Below are positions 57,518 through 64,000 of a stretch of 64,000 bases of DNA, one piece after another. Every line of letters begins with the position of its first letter. Position 1 is the stretch's first letter. Below the pieces are notes generated by a model that saw only the letters and a list, made by a program, of their open reading frames with translations, did no database searches and had not been told where the DNA came from. The DNA lies in IMG/VR virus record IMGVR_UViG_3300036770_004511, positions 1 through 64,000 of that record. One strand, given 5' to 3'. A program made the position numbers and the translations under genes. Origin of the DNA: a virus.

Positions 57518-59245
57518 CTATTGCGCCGCTGCGGCCGGTGCTGGTGCTGCCGCCCCTGCTGGCGATCCACCTATGCCAGGAGCAGCACCAGGTTGTGGGA
57601 GTCCACCCTCGGCTCCTGCCTCTGGCCCACCCACTGCCGGCATGCTATCTAGTGCCTCGATATCAGAACTAATGCCCCCCGGAGTAATTCCTACACTACG
57701 TAAACCAACCTCGGCTCCCGAATCCTCTGCGGTTTCGCCCTGTTCCTGCAGCCACATTTCTTGGTTTTCTGTCATTTCTTCTTCAGTTAGGCCTAGATAA
57801 CGCTTCATTAAAAAACGTTTACTGAAGTAAGGTATTTGTTCTAATTGTCCAAAAACACCTATTCTAGCTGCATCAATTTCAACCTGACGATGCTGTGCAA
57901 AGTTTTGCGGTTCATTTAATCGTAGTTCGAACAGTTGATTTTCAATGTTTATGCCACGCCAACGCATAAACATCTTAAATTCTTTATCCAACGTACCGCA
58001 AATCATGTTTTGCAGACGCATACAATACCTATTAAAACGCCATTCCTGAATCAGTGCAGTACCCACACGCCCATCGTTATAGGTTTGAGTTCCATCTTCA
58101 CTGCCTGTTGGCAAATAACTACTAGGAATACGTAGACCACGGAATAATTTATTAGTAAAAAATCTTAAGTCAGTGATCTCGCCCAGATTTTGTCCGCCTG
58201 CTAGTGTTTCTACGCTACTTCCACGGCCTTCTGCTGTTTGCGGGAAAAAGTAATCTTCGTTAGTACTCAATGGATTATAGGTAGCATCCATCATATTAGC
58301 ACTACCACCTGTTTGAGTAGGTATTCTACGTTGATGAATTTCGTTTTTAATCTTTTCCACAAAGGCCATGGCCATGTGTGTAGGCATGTTACCTACGTCA
58401 ATCTTAAAGATCCTACGTTCCGGTGCTCTTTGCACACGATAGATAATAATAGCATCCTCTAGTAGTTCCTTTTGTTTGAATACTTTGAAGATGTTTTCTA
58501 ATACGCTGTTACCAAAAGGCCAAAATATATCTAAACCTTCTGTTAAACTGAGATGTACTACATGTTCTGCGTTAATACCTACTTCGTTTTGTGCATGACT
58601 AAACCTGCTGCCGCCGGTAAAAGGTGCACTAGGTTGTATATAAGCACCATTGGGCCCACCAACCTGTGGATGATTAATGTAGGTATCTGACGTACTAACC
58701 ACTGTTACAGTTAAATTTTGTAAATTAGGCTGTATTTCTTTAACCACATACTGCTCAGGTTCTTTGCCTTCTGCTTCATTTACAATAACTTTAGTAACTT
58801 TACTCATTTCAACCCAGTAAAGTTTGAAAGTTTCCGGATCTCTAATGAATATCTGATCTCCATACTTGATAGTATTACGTACTATCTTAAAGATACGCTT
58901 ATTAAATTCATTAAGAGTTACCCATTGCTGCAACTGTTCTTTAATAATATCCACTTCTGTATCAGTGGGCTTATCATTGAAATGTATACTAAAAGGTAGT
59001 TGAGTGGTATCGTCTAACTGGCTGCTGAACTCTGCTAGAATATCTAAAGCCGCATTGATTTCTGAATCCATGTCCATCTGTTCGTACTGATTATAGCGTT
59101 CAACACGATTAGGATGCCCTGTATAGACTTCAGGTAAATTGCTTTGATAATTACGATACGTAGGAGTTCCGGATCCCGAAGTACCAGTGCCTGCAGGATT
59201 AGTTAGTGCCGAATTAGGCGCCTTAAAATATTTTTTCCAACTCAT
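57518..59245 (-). CDS. gp20: Portal protein gp20
   Basis: The product is 575 aa. It matches T4-type gp20 throughout: NQYEQMDMDSEINAALDIL, RVQRAPERRIFKIDVGNMP, FRGLRIPSSYLPTG, RFNRYCMRLQNMICGTLDKE and VFGQLEQIPYFSKRFLMKR. It forms the dodecameric ring at the head vertex through which DNA is packaged and ejected. The length is close to T4 (524 aa) and cyanophage versions. The C-terminus is Ala/Pro/Gly-rich (GAAPGIGGSPAGAAAP). A CATAAATA ends 9 nt before the start. To its right is the tape-measure gene, not sheath and tube genes as in T4. Confidence 0.95.
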   Translation of the reverse strand: MSWKKYFKAPNSALTNPAGTGTSGSGTPTYRNYQSNLPEVYTGHPNRVERYNQYEQMDMDSEINAALDILAEFSSQLDDTTQLPFSIHFNDKPTDTEVDIIKEQLQQWVTLNEFNKRIFKIVRNTIKYGDQIFIRDPETFKLYWVEMSKVTKVIVNEAEGKEPEQYVVKEIQPNLQNLTVTVVSTSDTYINHPQVGGPNGAYIQPSAPFTGGSRFSHAQNEVGINAEHVVHLSLTEGLDIFWPFGNSVLENIFKVFKQKELLEDAIIIYRVQRAPERRIFKIDVGNMPTHMAMAFVEKIKNEIHQRRIPTQTGGSANMMDATYNPLSTNEDYFFPQTAEGRGSSVETLAGGQNLGEITDLRFFTNKLFRGLRIPSSYLPTGSEDGTQTYNDGRVGTALIQEWRFNRYCMRLQNMICGTLDKEFKMFMRWRGINIENQLFELRLNEPQNFAQHRQVEIDAARIGVFGQLEQIPYFSKRFLMKRYLGLTEEEMTENQEMWLQEQGETAEDSGAEVGLRSVGITPGGISSDIEALDSMPAVGGPEAGAEGGLPQPGAAPGIGGSPAGAAAPAPAAAAQ

Positions 59246-59269: not shown

Positions 59270-62155
59270 TTAAACTGTGTTATTAAGTATCTGCTGCTGG
59301 ATACTACGTAAATCTTGCATAATACTGTTCATCTGTTCCTGTTGTTGTACCATTAAACTATTAATACTCAATTGATCTTTAAGCACCTTGGTCATTTCTG
59401 TGGTTTGAGTTGCTGTGATTTGAGTGTTAGGAGTATCTGTAGGAGCAGAATTATTTTGCAATATCTGGGAAATCTGAGAAACAAGAGTTTCGGCACCGAC
59501 AAAACTATTCTGACCAACTGCTTCTACTGCTTCTCGTGCCATCAAAGAATTCGATCTCATCTGCTGCTGCACAGGCCCAACTATACCATTTAAGGCAGAT
59601 ACCAGCATAGCAGCGTCTGGGCTGCTACCAGAATTAAGTAATTTTAATAAATCATTGGGCACAATAGAACCAGACAAGCCCGGTACAAATAATTCTGGTC
59701 CTTCTTCACCTACAATATACGGCTGGCTCCCACGCACTGATCCCCCACGGGCACGACCTTCTACGCCCTCAGAATCCATAAACTTCATCACAGTGTCGTA
59801 TAAAAACTCACCCAGTGCCTCACCGGCAAGGCTACCAAGATAACCTCCCACTGCGGCTCCTACTGGCCCACCAAGTAAACCGGCTATGCCTCCTACAAAC
59901 TTACCAGCCAGACCACCAAATGCTTTGCCCTTAGGTACAGCTTTGGCACCGCCAGGCTTAGGTTGTTTATTGGCATCCCCAGGGGGAGGTGTTTTACCAG
60001 GGCCACCAGTGACCACATCTGCTACAGGGTTAGACCCCATGACAATAACATAGTATGGATTTTGTGCCGAACCATTGGGAGCACCGAGATCTGGTTTACC
60101 ACCAGTGCCTAGTACTGCTCCTAGTGCGCCTTTGAGCCCGTCTTTCTGAAATCCTTTGAGCATGTCAGGAATTTTTTCACCAGCCGCTTTACCTACTTTG
60201 TATCCTGCTATACCACCTACACCCATCCCGGCATACTTTCCGCCGGTCCCTGCAACTTCTTTACCGTCAACACCACCTAACATATTTTTAATTTTTTCAA
60301 CTATGCTGCCGGTGCCAGTGATTAAATTATTAAACTGTGATAAGATACCACGTATAGCAGCACCTATGCCTTCTATGTCTAGTGCTCCTGCTAACTTTTT
60401 AAGTCCGTCAGCAATGGTATTGACATTATCCGACAGGGCGTTGCCAAATTCCTGCATTAGTTTAGATATAGTGCTTTCTACTAATACTCTTAGTTCTTGG
60501 GCTCGCTGCTGAATTGTTGTAATAACATTAGTTAACGGATCTTTTTTGTCGGCTTCGGCGCCTTCTTTAATTTGCTTTAATTGAGAATCGATGGCTTCTT
60601 TAGTGGCTTTGCTAGCGTAACTCATTGTATCTAGCATTAATTTACTGACTTCCCCTGCTAGACTGTCGGGTTTCGCAAAGGCTGCTAGGGCCATTGCTTC
60701 TTGGCTTTGCATACTTTGACGTATGGTTTCGCCATTGGCTTTCATGTACTCTGCCACTTGGCCAACACTGGCGTTACCTGTCTTAGCACCGTCGGCTAGC
60801 ATTTCAGCCAGACGTTTCATTTCAGGACTGCTGTTGGCCAACACTGCTAACGCAGGAGTTATAATTGTGCCAGTATTAGCAATTTCAATGGCCATCTTAC
60901 GTGCAGCCGCCGGTGCTGCTGCCATGGCTTGTTCGACTTGAGTTCTTTGTTCGCCTGTTAATTTGTTTAGCTGTTGCTGGAAACGCAGATTCATCATGTC
61001 TTGACGAGCCTGCTCCATTTTCTTTTTGGCATCTTCACCGGTTATGGATGCAATTAAACGCAGGTTTTGGGCATATTTTTCAGTTTGGATAGCAACTTCT
61101 CTGTCGCTGGCCTTAAGAGGACCAGCCATGCCAGCCATGCTACGCATGGTCTCGGCTACTAGACCAGCTTGTTCTTCAACGCTGTAGCCTAAATTCAACA
61201 ACCTGCGCTGCATTTCCGCGCCACCTTGTGCTAGAGCTTTGCTTAATCTCCGAGACCCTTCAGTCACACCTAGGCCTGCTGCTGCAATATTATTTGCATT
61301 TTCGCTAACTACTCGACTAAATTGTTCTAAGGTTAATCCGCCTTGATGTGCTGTTTTTAGCATGTCGCCTAAGCCACCAGCAAAGGCAGCACCTGCACGG
61401 TTTAACCCTTGGAATGACTTTACATAACTATCAATTTGGGCAGTGAGCATTTCAAATGCACCAACTGCTACGCCGCCTACTACACCAACTACTGCACCAA
61501 AGGCTTTGCCTAAGCCACCCAGTAAAGAACTGATTACTTTACCTAAACCAGGAAATACAATACCTACTAGATTACCAACTACACCACCTAAACTACCAAA
61601 AACTCCACCTGCAGCCTGTGCTGCACTGGTTAAAATCTTAATCCCTGACGAAAATAAACCTGTGAATAACCGAGTATCACTGCCACTTTGTGTGAGATTA
61701 GTAACAATATCTTTGGTTACGCCAGCTAGATCCTTGGCAAACGTATATCCTGTGGTAACCAAACTACTGGCAAAATTTACTGTGGCACGTTTGGTGTTTT
61801 CCCAACCTGCTTGAATCTCAACTTCTCGTTTTTTGGCTTTGAGTAATCTACGTTCTTCATCGTCAGTAGAATCGTTAATAGCTTGTTGCAGTCCATCTAA
61901 GTTAGCAGTAACATCTTTGTACTGCATAGAGCCAGTTCGGAAAAACTCAGACCACTTAGCAGCAGACTCGGTGCTGGTTTTTAGACTTCCTTTGAATCGA
62001 TCTAGATCTTTTACCAGTGCACGAAGACGTTCTCGCTCGGCCTTTTGTTCAGGTGTTTCCTGTGCGGCAGCCCCAGCACCGGGTCGCCCAGCCAAACCAT
62101 CGGCTACACCTTGAGCAATGCTTTGTTGTAGACGATCGTAATCAAAATCTGCCAT
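59270..62155 (-). CDS. Tail tape-measure protein
   Basis: The product is 961 aa. N-terminal helices (about 1-150) lead into a hydrophobic Gly/Ala/Val stretch (about 160-260, VFGSLGGVVGNLVGIVFPGL) with potential membrane segments. A long helical part (about 270-640) follows, then a second Gly-rich hydrophobic region. Near the end is the hallmark ARGGSVRGSQPYIVGEEGPE, then LFVPGLSGSIVPNDLL, found in many tape-measure C-termini. It fixes tail length and is expelled into the host envelope during infection. It is longer than T4 gp29 (590 aa). It is divergent from the gp26-type gene, with two face-to-face late promoters between. Confidence 0.85.
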   Translation of the reverse strand: MADFDYDRLQQSIAQGVADGLAGRPGAGAAAQETPEQKAERERLRALVKDLDRFKGSLKTSTESAAKWSEFFRTGSMQYKDVTANLDGLQQAINDSTDDEERRLLKAKKREVEIQAGWENTKRATVNFASSLVTTGYTFAKDLAGVTKDIVTNLTQSGSDTRLFTGLFSSGIKILTSAAQAAGGVFGSLGGVVGNLVGIVFPGLGKVISSLLGGLGKAFGAVVGVVGGVAVGAFEMLTAQIDSYVKSFQGLNRAGAAFAGGLGDMLKTAHQGGLTLEQFSRVVSENANNIAAAGLGVTEGSRRLSKALAQGGAEMQRRLLNLGYSVEEQAGLVAETMRSMAGMAGPLKASDREVAIQTEKYAQNLRLIASITGEDAKKKMEQARQDMMNLRFQQQLNKLTGEQRTQVEQAMAAAPAAARKMAIEIANTGTIITPALAVLANSSPEMKRLAEMLADGAKTGNASVGQVAEYMKANGETIRQSMQSQEAMALAAFAKPDSLAGEVSKLMLDTMSYASKATKEAIDSQLKQIKEGAEADKKDPLTNVITTIQQRAQELRVLVESTISKLMQEFGNALSDNVNTIADGLKKLAGALDIEGIGAAIRGILSQFNNLITGTGSIVEKIKNMLGGVDGKEVAGTGGKYAGMGVGGIAGYKVGKAAGEKIPDMLKGFQKDGLKGALGAVLGTGGKPDLGAPNGSAQNPYYVIVMGSNPVADVVTGGPGKTPPPGDANKQPKPGGAKAVPKGKAFGGLAGKFVGGIAGLLGGPVGAAVGGYLGSLAGEALGEFLYDTVMKFMDSEGVEGRARGGSVRGSQPYIVGEEGPELFVPGLSGSIVPNDLLKLLNSGSSPDAAMLVSALNGIVGPVQQQMRSNSLMAREAVEAVGQNSFVGAETLVSQISQILQNNSAPTDTPNTQITATQTTEMTKVLKDQLSINSLMVQQQEQMNSIMQDLRSIQQQILNNTV

Positions 62156-62205: not shown

Positions 62206-63051
62206 ATGGAAAACCAGCAGCCTAATCCGCTAAGTCGCTATTTTCGACAACCTGCTATATATCTTAAACTGCCCAGTGAAGGACAATGGTGGCAACCGGG
62301 CTCGTTAGATCTCCCAGATAATAAAGAGTTACCCATTTATCCCATGACTGCCAGGGACGAAATCATATTAAAAACACCTGACGCATTAATGAATGGGCAG
62401 GGCATGGTAGATGTTATACAAAGTTGTGTACCAAACATTAAAAACGCTTGGGCTTGCCCCAGTGTTGACCTAGACGCTATATTAATTGCTATACGCTTGG
62501 CTACCTATGGCAATAGCATGGATTTTGAAAGCACCTGCACTCAATGTAACAGCAAAAATCTGCATGGTATAAACCTAACAGAGCCCTTAAGTGCTATACA
62601 GTGCCCAGATTTTGGCAAGTACGTGCGCTACAAAGATCTTAACATACGCTTGAAGCCACAAAATTACAAACAAATCAGTGAAGCAGGACAGATTACCTAC
62701 GAAGAACAACGTATTAATAGTGCACTGATAGATCAAGAAATGCCAGAAGCAGAAAAAAATCGCATGCTGACAGAAAGTATTAAACGATTAATAGATCTAG
62801 GTATACAGGCTTGCAGCAATAGCACAGAATATATCGAAACCAATGGTCAACATGTAACCGAACGTGAATTCATTGACCAATTCTATAGCAATGCCGAAGC
62901 TGAAGTTATTAAGTTGCTACAAACTAGAAACGCAGAGATCACACAAGACAGTCGTATCCCGCCATTTAATCTACAGTGTGAAAGTTGTAATCAAACTTAT
63001 CAAGCGGAACTAACATTTGATTATTCAAATTTTTTCGCGCAAGGCTTTTAA
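62206..63051 (+). CDS. gp26: Baseplate/tail assembly protein, gp26-type (T4_baseplate family)
   Basis: The product is 281 aa, starting MENQQPNPLSRYFRQPAIYL. LPSEGQWWQPGSLDLPDNKE, then YPMTARDEIILKTPDALMNG, is the signature of the T4 gp26-type family (Pfam T4_baseplate), a hub or assembly protein. Two CxxC pairs (Cys111/114 in CTQCNSKNL and Cys258/261 in CESCNQTY) should form a zinc ribbon. The frame ends at a TAA at 63049. Codons 276-277 are TTT TTC preceded by T, a UUUUUUC slippery heptamer, and the next frame (minus 1) holds the gp51-type sequence with no start codon of its own. It sits beside the tape measure, as tail assembly chaperones do. Confidence 0.85.
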   Translation: MENQQPNPLSRYFRQPAIYLKLPSEGQWWQPGSLDLPDNKELPIYPMTARDEIILKTPDALMNGQGMVDVIQSCVPNIKNAWACPSVDLDAILIAIRLATYGNSMDFESTCTQCNSKNLHGINLTEPLSAIQCPDFGKYVRYKDLNIRLKPQNYKQISEAGQITYEEQRINSALIDQEMPEAEKNRMLTESIKRLIDLGIQACSNSTEYIETNGQHVTEREFIDQFYSNAEAEVIKLLQTRNAEITQDSRIPPFNLQCESCNQTYQAELTFDYSNFFAQGF

Positions 63052-63269
63052 CCTTTAAGACCGAAGCAGAGATTATAGCTTTCTTAGATGGCTATGATCG
63101 TGAGGTAAAAGCCTTCAAAGAAGAATTACTGCGTATGTGTTGGTTTATGAGGGGTGGTGTCACCTACAGCGAAATTATGCAGATGAGTCAGCCAGAAAGA
63201 GAGATTATTGCTAACATTATCAAAAGCAATTTGGAAATTACTAAAGAATCTAAAGTTGCATTCTTTTAA
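63021..63269 (+). CDS. gp51: gp51-type assembly domain, probably made by -1 frameshift from gp26
   Basis: This frame is open from 63021 (after a TGA at 63018) to a TAA at 63267, 82 codons. It reads TFKTEAEIIAFLDGYDREVK, then LLRMCWFMRGGVTYSEIMQM, and ends TKESKVAFF, matching the C-terminal pattern (MRGGV.Y..IM.M...ER..I) of gp51-type baseplate hub assembly proteins of T4-like phages. No ATG, GTG or TTG lies in frame before the conserved core; the first in-frame ATG is inside it. The -1 slip at T TTT TTC (63030-63036) would give a 354-aa fusion ending in this domain. A non-AUG start such as ATT is the alternative. A terminator hairpin overlaps its stop. Confidence 0.75.
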   Translation, partial: LFKFFRARLLTFKTEAEIIAFLDGYDREVKAFKEELLRMCWFMRGGVTYSEIMQMSQPEREIIANIIKSNLEITKESKVAFF

Positions 63270-63297
63270 GATTTGCTTTCGCAAATCTATTTCTTTC
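63269..63297 (+). terminator. Intrinsic-type terminator after gp51-type frame
   Basis: The perfect 8-bp stem AGATTTGC / GCAAATCT closes a TTTC loop and is followed by ATTTCTTTC, a moderate T-rich tail. It starts in the stop codon of the gp51-type frame. Confidence 0.65.
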
Positions 63298-63670
63298 GCT
63301 CTCGCTCAGAAATCTTTTTTTTTACTTTTGAAAGAAGGCATTCATCCAGATAATTCAGTCATAATTCGCCCGTTGCCGGGCGAAAAATAGAGATGCCTTC
63401 ATCCGAGTGCATCAGCCACTGATTTTGGGAGAGTTGTTTTACAACAGGAGGCGGTTGACCTGTACCCCCACTCTTGCCTTCGCGAATGTCAACGGAACCC
63501 TGGTCGCACCTATCAGCAGCACGATTTGGGCCTACGGTTGTTTCTTTTTCACAGAGCCGTAACCATTTGAGACCTAAAGTTAGTTCTATCCTCGCAATGC
63601 CCAAGATCTGACGGTAAATGAATACAGCCTCAATGGGAGTCGAGCAGCCCCGACCAAACACTATTGCATG
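63298..63670. other. Unassigned hairpin-rich region
   Basis: This 370-base stretch has no convincing gene. It contains an outer inverted repeat GAAGGCAT (63334-63341) / ATGCCTTC (63393-63400) enclosing a perfect hairpin TTCGCCCG / CGGGCGAA (63365-63372, 63377-63384, loop TTGC). A further hairpin GTTGTTTTACAAC lies near 63432, and GTCG/CGAC pairs lie near 63640. A minus-strand frame from a GTG at 63661 to 63359 (100 aa) is open but has no SD and no recognised motif. The base make-up looks more GC-rich than the flanking genes. Options are a structured RNA, a transposon remnant (for example an IS200/IS605-like end with its hairpin) or a decayed gene. Confidence 0.4.
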
Positions 63671-64000
63671 TTAACGGCACAAGGCCGCGATGTTTTCTTT
63701 GTTTTTGTTAAGGAATTGTTCTAGATCGAATATTTGCCAGACTTGGTGTCTTGATCTGTAGGTAAATGAGCTAAGGGTTTGGTCCCAGTTTTGATTGTAT
63801 GGTACTACTACGAATGTGCCTTTGCGTGTGAACTTCATGAACAGAATGTTAAAATCACCCTTGTCAGCTACCTCTAACATCTGTTCAATCCATCCGTCTA
63901 ATTGCTTACATGAGCCTGTGAATAATTGATGAAATGGAAAATCTGCGTAATTTTTTGCTTCAGCGTTCATACGACCAAAACTGGGTCCTGGTACTATGTC
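63671..64000 (-). CDS. Probable PD-(D/E)xK nuclease (5' end beyond window)
   Basis: The frame ends at 63671 and is open to the right edge, so the N-terminus is missing; an internal ATG at 63970 is not taken as the start because the upstream codons continue the reading (DIVPGPSFGRMNAEAKNYAD). The pattern Asp, then Glu-Ala-Lys (NAEAKNYADFPF), fits the D...ExK core of PD-(D/E)xK nucleases such as Holliday-junction-resolvase-like enzymes. It continues HQLFTGSCKQLDGWIEQMLE and KFTRKGTFVVVPYNQNW, and ends NKENIAALCR. The family is inferred from this motif and the alternating strands; the substrate (DNA or RNA) and its role are unknown. Confidence 0.6.
   Translation of the reverse strand, partial: DIVPGPSFGRMNAEAKNYADFPFHQLFTGSCKQLDGWIEQMLEVADKGDFNILFMKFTRKGTFVVVPYNQNWDQTLSSFTYRSRHQVWQIFDLEQFLNKNKENIAALCR

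Follow-up and report, generated by a model that had tools for sequence, protein, structure and literature searches.

How a reading frame that overlaps the end of a gp26-type gene in the −1 register is translated, and what its product does beside the tape-measure gene, is the question raised by this locus. The window, i.e. the whole stretch of DNA analysed, comprises 64,000 of the 67,671 bases of an IMG/VR virus record; a Megablast search of it against phages gave no match. Its minus strand carries T4-like morphogenesis genes, namely those for a prohead protease, for the portal protein gp20 (57518–59245, − strand; PF07230, E 7.7e-106), which fixes the T4-like context, and for a 961-residue tape-measure candidate (59270–62155, − strand), assigned by synteny and a weak match to the phrog_973 tape measure family (E 1e-3). 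The RaK2 gene at the position of this candidate is noted there as similar to tail tape measure protein, and CBB_251, the counterpart in phage CBB, is abundant in CBB virions. The gp26-type gene (62206–63051, + strand; PF12322 T4_baseplate, E 1.6e-13, over the cut-off; phrog_150, E 2e-16) is adjacent to the candidate and divergent from it. The original prediction had likened this arrangement to that of lambda; the adjacency holds, but the tape-measure candidate lies on the opposite strand rather than being co-directional as in lambda.

The short product of the gp26-type gene has 281 residues, with two CxxC pairs (C111/C114 and C258/C261) in the alignment; its AlphaFold model has a pLDDT of 92. 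Comparison with the PDB, both by sequence and by fold, gave no match, and the fold matches in BFVD were phage proteins only, the best being of the same kind. Foldseek also related the model (62206–63051) to unannotated proteins of the giant phages phiRSL1, vB_EamM_Special G, RSF1, Motura and pT24 (E 1e-5 to 1e-7), which may be unrecognised tail chaperones of those phages.

In the window the gp26 frame ends AAT TTT TTC GCG CAA GGC TTT TAA. The slippery heptamer T TTT TTC, read in the gp26 frame at 63030–63036 (+ strand), is followed 12 nt later by the TAA stop codon of the short product (63049–63051, + strand), as had been predicted. An open −1 frame spans 63021 to 63266 and, from the slip onwards, encodes a 77-residue extension (63036–63269, + strand; TAA stop at 63267–63269) with a conserved FFR..LL motif, predicted to form a helical domain (pLDDT 89.5). 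The first ATG, GTG or TTG of this frame is an ATG 35 codons past the slip, within the conserved core, in line with the earlier claim that the gp51-type frame lies at −1 and has no canonical start before that core. With tandem slippage, the long product would join gp26 residues 1–277 to the 77 residues of the extension, giving the 354-residue fusion originally proposed.

Relatives were surveyed in IMG/VR (11 loci; 80 loci) and among cultured jumbo phages found by tblastn. The pattern N NNT TTT TTN occurs near the end of the gp26 frame in 106/106 usable loci of the first survey, the last heptamer codon being TTC in 103, TTT in two (XacN1 and CM1) and TTG in one (RL38J1); NNT TTT TTC is kept in 80/80 cyanophage-type loci, and the site is likewise present in Aeromonas Ah1, Vibrio D484 and Rhizobium IC12 and RL38J1. 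The distance from the heptamer to the stop codon is mostly 3 or 12 nt, and reaches 33 nt in some enterobacterial jumbo phages. Among 78 divergent representatives the codon preceding TTT is AGT, AAT, CAT, GAT, ACT, CGT, GCT or TAT; the base before TTT is always T, whilst the encoded residue is free (Ser, Asn, His, Asp, Thr, Arg, Ala or Tyr). An in-frame T TTT TTN is present at the site in all 78 gp26 representatives, compared with four occurrences in their 21,556 other codons. From each gene's own codon use, a T before TTT is expected at the site in ~28 of the 78; the corresponding log10 P, by a statistic that ignores relatedness, is −23 (wobble T) or −16 (TTT).

Conservation of the heptamer at the junction, which the original prediction proposed as a check across T4-like phages, extends over both sets of loci but not to the distant Ackermannviridae phage 0507-KN2-1 and Vibrio K474, which keep the −1 overlap without it. 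In Klebsiella 0507-KN2-1 (locus L202, 3289–3462) the −1 ORF follows gp26 at ATT TTC ATT TAA with no start nearby, and in K474 (locus L204, 3208–3402) TAATGATG is present. Since both retain the −1 ORF, other routes to the extension exist.

The −1 frame itself is open from the slip in 106/106 loci of the first survey. After the first six heptamer bases, position +6 is C in 75/77 representatives and +7 is G in 74/77, whilst +8 is free. Because +6 is a wobble position of gp26 and +8 a second codon position, this pattern is the reverse of that expected from gp26 coding; it fits a near-invariant arginine codon (CGN) of the −1 frame rather than constraint on the gp26 frame. The block FFR-x-RLL is conserved from the slip onwards, ahead of any possible start and, judged from the alignment, selection on the −1 frame starts at the first codon past the slip. 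No start codon lies within 12 codons of the slip in 35 of the 77 representatives, the window included; two representatives have no ATG in the −1 frame at all, and the PA5oct −1 frame contains no ATG, GTG or TTG anywhere. The commonest early start, a TTG at codon 6, is not conserved, and the window has TTA there. With no usable start in this lineage and FFR-x-RLL conserved ahead of any possible one, translation must enter from gp26. The proposed absence of a separate gp51 start is therefore borne out in the window's lineage but does not extend to the cyanophages, which have a conserved ATG 5 codons past the slip, with no evident Shine–Dalgarno (SD) sequence.

In public records of cultured jumbo phages (loci L017, L015, L021 and others) the extension is unannotated in PA5oct and RaK2 and cut to an internal start in Atu_ph07, and it is deposited as a separate hypothetical protein in CBB, GAP32, 121Q and Munch.

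Downstream of the heptamer, the window can form a 14-bp stem (−27 kcal/mol, z −3.2) between a 5′ arm starting 4 nt past the heptamer (AAGGCTTTTA.CCTT; 63041–63055, + strand), within which the gp26 stop codon lies, and a 3′ arm at 63102–63115 (+ strand; GAGGTAAAAGCCTT). Both arms are supported by minimum free energy folding and covariation, and the 5′ arm also by duplex z; an additional hairpin is seen in the window, by folding, within the loop of the long stem (63071–63099, + strand). The weak AAGG/CCTT stem noticed originally is in fact only the foot of this structure. In the representatives generally, the 5′ arm, GGCTTTTGAC, lies 4–6 nt past the heptamer and the 3′ arm, GTCAAAAGCC, ~50 nt further. 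Relative to dinucleotide shuffles, the z score of 100-nt folds starting at +7 is −2.62 ± 0.21 across 78 representatives, compared with −0.1 to −0.3 upstream. For 65 environmental representatives, 80% of them below −2, the energy of the duplex between +9..+26 and +30..+112 has a mean z of −3.34; three control placements give −0.04 to −0.10. In 40 unique cyanophage-type loci it is −2.02 (control −0.31), the stem being supported in half of the cyanophage types, and in 12 cultured jumbo phages it averages −0.63, most of them being without a supported stem and XacN1 alone having a strong one.

RNAalifold found no consensus structure for the full mixed alignment, and covariation was therefore counted directly on the named 8-bp helix in 57 sequences. 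Paired cells make up 86.6% of this helix, 38 cells are double-changed (14 when shuffled), and the covariation score of 0.246 compares with at most 0.157 when the helix is slid. Columns 21 and 77 pair as GC in 35 sequences and AU in 18, and are unpaired in two; column 21 is the silent third base of a leucine codon (TTG/TTA), and column 77 a non-synonymous second base (xCA/xTA; Ser/Ala/Thr or Val/Ile). Columns 18 and 80 pair as UA in 31 and CG in 14, coupling a silent CTT/CTC change to Lys/Arg. The Fisher p values, 1.6e-11 for columns 21/77 and 6.6e-8 for columns 18/80, both ignore relatedness; on the tree the covarying columns change 7–11 times, and an independent-pairs test restricted to well-supported (starred) branches yielded 2–3 pairs, concordant or unchanged and none discordant, too few to reach significance. 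The same 5′ arm is matched by an alternative 3′ arm at ~+53 in loci L060, L066 and L068, and at ~+90 in L099 and L111. The putative role of the stem is to stimulate slippage.

The reading that we favour, with a probability of about 0.88, is that −1 programmed ribosomal frameshifting (PRF) at this locus yields the two members of a tail assembly chaperone pair. Most ribosomes would end at the TAA at 63049 to yield the gp26-type short protein. A fraction would be held by the stem (63041–63055/63102–63115) whilst TTT and TTC are occupied by the P- and A-site tRNAs, would slip one base back on T TTT TTC into the −1 frame, and would go on to produce the 354-residue long protein with its helical C-terminal domain. 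Frameshifting at T TTT TTC, and the efficiency with which it would occur, are here deduced from sequence. If they act as lambda gpG/gpGT do, the two forms would bind the tape-measure protein (59270–62155), coating and holding it during polymerisation of the tail tube.

Alternatively, the −1 ORF could be a separate small gene, translated from a start of its own by termination–reinitiation near the gp26 stop. This proposal draws support from the cyanophage ATG, which directly follows the gp26 stop, from a TTG at codon 6, or a different start no more than 12 codons in, present in approximately half of the representatives (in 17 of which a start lies near an SD-like match, mostly the stop codon plus GG), from TAATGATG in K474, and from the separate ORFs annotated in many jumbo phages in GenBank. 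However, FFR..LL is conserved in the −1 frame even where, as in the window, no start lies within 12 codons, the PA5oct frame has no start to use, the annotated −1 starts cut into the conserved domain, and reinitiation leaves both the fixed T TTT TTC and the stem unexplained; we regard it as very unlikely. Still less probable is transcriptional slippage on the T run, by which a subset of mRNAs would carry the shifted frame. A T run is indeed present at the site, but it has only six Ts in 104/106 loci and seven in the other two, and transcriptional slippage usually needs longer runs than these; moreover, the site is fixed in codon phase and the stem sits at the usual 4–6 nt spacing.

It is also conceivable, but improbable, that frameshifting is real and that its products are structural parts of the baseplate hub rather than tape-measure chaperones. 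PF12322 and phrog_150 are named for the baseplate or baseplate hub, and older T4 genetics, cited in a review of the T4 tail (PMC3004832), placed gp26 in the hub. Against this, gp26 and gp51 appear among the hub assembly chaperones in the same review, which describes gp51 as needed for assembly and not in the final particle, and a short/long pair beside the tape measure is a hallmark of chaperones. In the accessible passage of the CBB virion table, CBB_251, the tape-measure neighbour, has 29 peptides and the gp26-type CBB_250 is unlisted, an absence that is weak because the CBB portal is likewise missing from that passage. In PA5oct, four neighbouring genes are marked as detected by ESI-MS/MS, whilst gp26 is not.

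The chaperone reading of gp26/gp51 in T4-like phages, which the original prediction also advanced, agrees both with the listing in PMC3004832 and with Vladimirov, Gautam & Davidson (2022, Virology 566:9–15), who, as cited in PMC10885494 and PMC12846349, identify gp26/gp51 as T4-like tail assembly chaperones; with that identity already published, the idea of the pair is not new. According to the PRFect paper (PMC10885494), that work describes some T4-like phages in which a short chaperone gene is accompanied by a longer fusion gene in place of frameshifting, and PMC12846349 cites it for poly-T frameshift signals in T4-like chaperone genes. Going by these secondary citations, frameshifting in some T4-like relatives is probably already known too.

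Amongst characterised systems, the −1 PRF reading invites comparison with lambda G/GT (Levin et al. 1993; Xu et al. 2004) and P2 E/E+E′ (Christie et al. 2002), both cited in PMC12859696 and reportedly frameshifted tail chaperones, in which a short form and a −1 extension, the latter produced when ribosomes slip close to the end of the first frame, are encoded beside the tape-measure gene. In arrangement the window is alike, having a short form and a −1 extension beside the tape-measure gene; it differs in that this gene is divergent, in its zinc-ribbon-like CxxC motifs and in its downstream long-range stem. The tail chaperones of Vandenendeviridae/Andersonviridae, for which −1 PRF at GTTTTT is described (PMC12846349), are likewise myovirus chaperones in which the downstream ORF is taken from conservation to be a −1 extension, a likeness of arrangement again; their slippery motif differs from that of the window, and the accessible part of that paper reports no stem for them. 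Cyanophage gp26–gp51 (Sf-FS3 and 80 IMG/VR loci) resembles the window in that T TTT TTC precedes the stop of gp26, that gp51 occupies the −1 frame and that a stem signal is present. It differs in its conserved ATG, owing to which reinitiation may occur there, and in an extension that is shorter and clearly homologous to the C-terminus of T4 gp51.

T4 gp26/gp51 belong to the same protein family and likewise provide short and long chaperone forms. The T4 arrangement was, however, rejected as a model for the window, as T4 26 and 51 are divergent separate genes, short and pre-fused long, with no heptamer, whereas in the window one gene with a slip site and stem would serve for both. Both T4 proteins match PF12322 over its full length, gp51 being ~48 residues longer; on these matches, they are paralogs and gp51 is a pre-fused long form. 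The gp51 C-terminus shows homology to the −1 ORF of cyanophages (hhalign 95.8%, E 3e-9), but its match to the −1 ORF of the window's lineage is marginal (hhalign probability 5%, E 0.002). The label 'gp51-type' given originally to the latter therefore depends chiefly on its position, its motif and the cyanophage intermediate.

A 47-domain tree unites every T4-type gp26 and gp51 domain sampled in one clade (97/95), to which the PRF-bearing Ah1 and D484 are sister (81/89), long branches meeting among two gp26 rows; one change separates PRF from duplication. As the root was not inferred, the direction from PRF to duplication is the simplest reading rather than a proven one. We infer that the frameshift arrangement is ancestral in the T4-like superfamily and was replaced by one duplication in T4-type Straboviridae, where genes 26 and 51 would encode the short and the pre-fused long form, respectively. 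More broadly, we consider it likely that the T4 superfamily originally made its chaperone pair by PRF with a covarying long-range stem, that the single duplication in Straboviridae froze its products as 26 and 51, and that some environmental lineages rebuilt the 3′ arm elsewhere whilst the spacing of the 5′ arm stayed fixed.

The region 3′ of the −1 ORF contains further noncoding elements. Directly after it, at 63270–63325 (+ strand), two hairpins in tandem are followed by TTTTTTTTT, together a probable intrinsic terminator of the gp26–51 transcript. Directly downstream of the chaperone locus, an element of ~350 nt (window 63325–63690, + strand; also L038:5066–5497, L035:4642–5062 and others) is much better conserved than the proteins, with 84–93% nucleotide identity to its counterparts in L002, L035, L036, L038 and L039, the gp26 proteins of which are ~50–79% identical. 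Of 72 environmental loci with enough sequence, 69 carry it on the same strand, at a median of 90 nt past the −1 ORF; its core, GGAGGCGGTTGACCNGTACCCC, is shared by at least 120 IMG/VR stretches. A hairpin within it covaries (columns 153–173, AU 10/GC 10; score 0.362, compared with at most 0.157 when slid). The element has no shared ORF and no match in Rfam or in cultured phages; a known RNA family, tRNA or tmRNA was rejected on the Rfam and ARAGORN results, and we regard it as a candidate new structured RNA. In RaK2-like jumbo phages the same place, between the −1 ORF and the endonuclease VII gene, is taken up by a 600–800-nt stretch in which few genes or none are annotated (L014:6044–6829 in CBB; also L016, L012, L018, L019, L020, L027 and L029). 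This stretch is ~67–95% identical between phages, and has no confident Rfam match and no detectable relation to the ~350-nt element of the window.

Judged by the readable literature, three points are new here: the covarying stem, how widely the arrangement occurs among environmental relatives, and the placing of the T4 duplication as a single event. The findings bring a large lineage of T4 relatives, made up of environmental and jumbo phages, into the range of tail chaperones made by frameshifting, and correct a widespread annotation in which the −1 ORF is either overlooked or entered as a hypothetical gene of its own. The stem offers a testable role, and the origin of T4 genes 26 and 51 can now be tested as the single splitting of one frameshift gene into a short gene and a long one. 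If this origin is correct, the Straboviridae duplication would account for the old 'catalytic' gp51.
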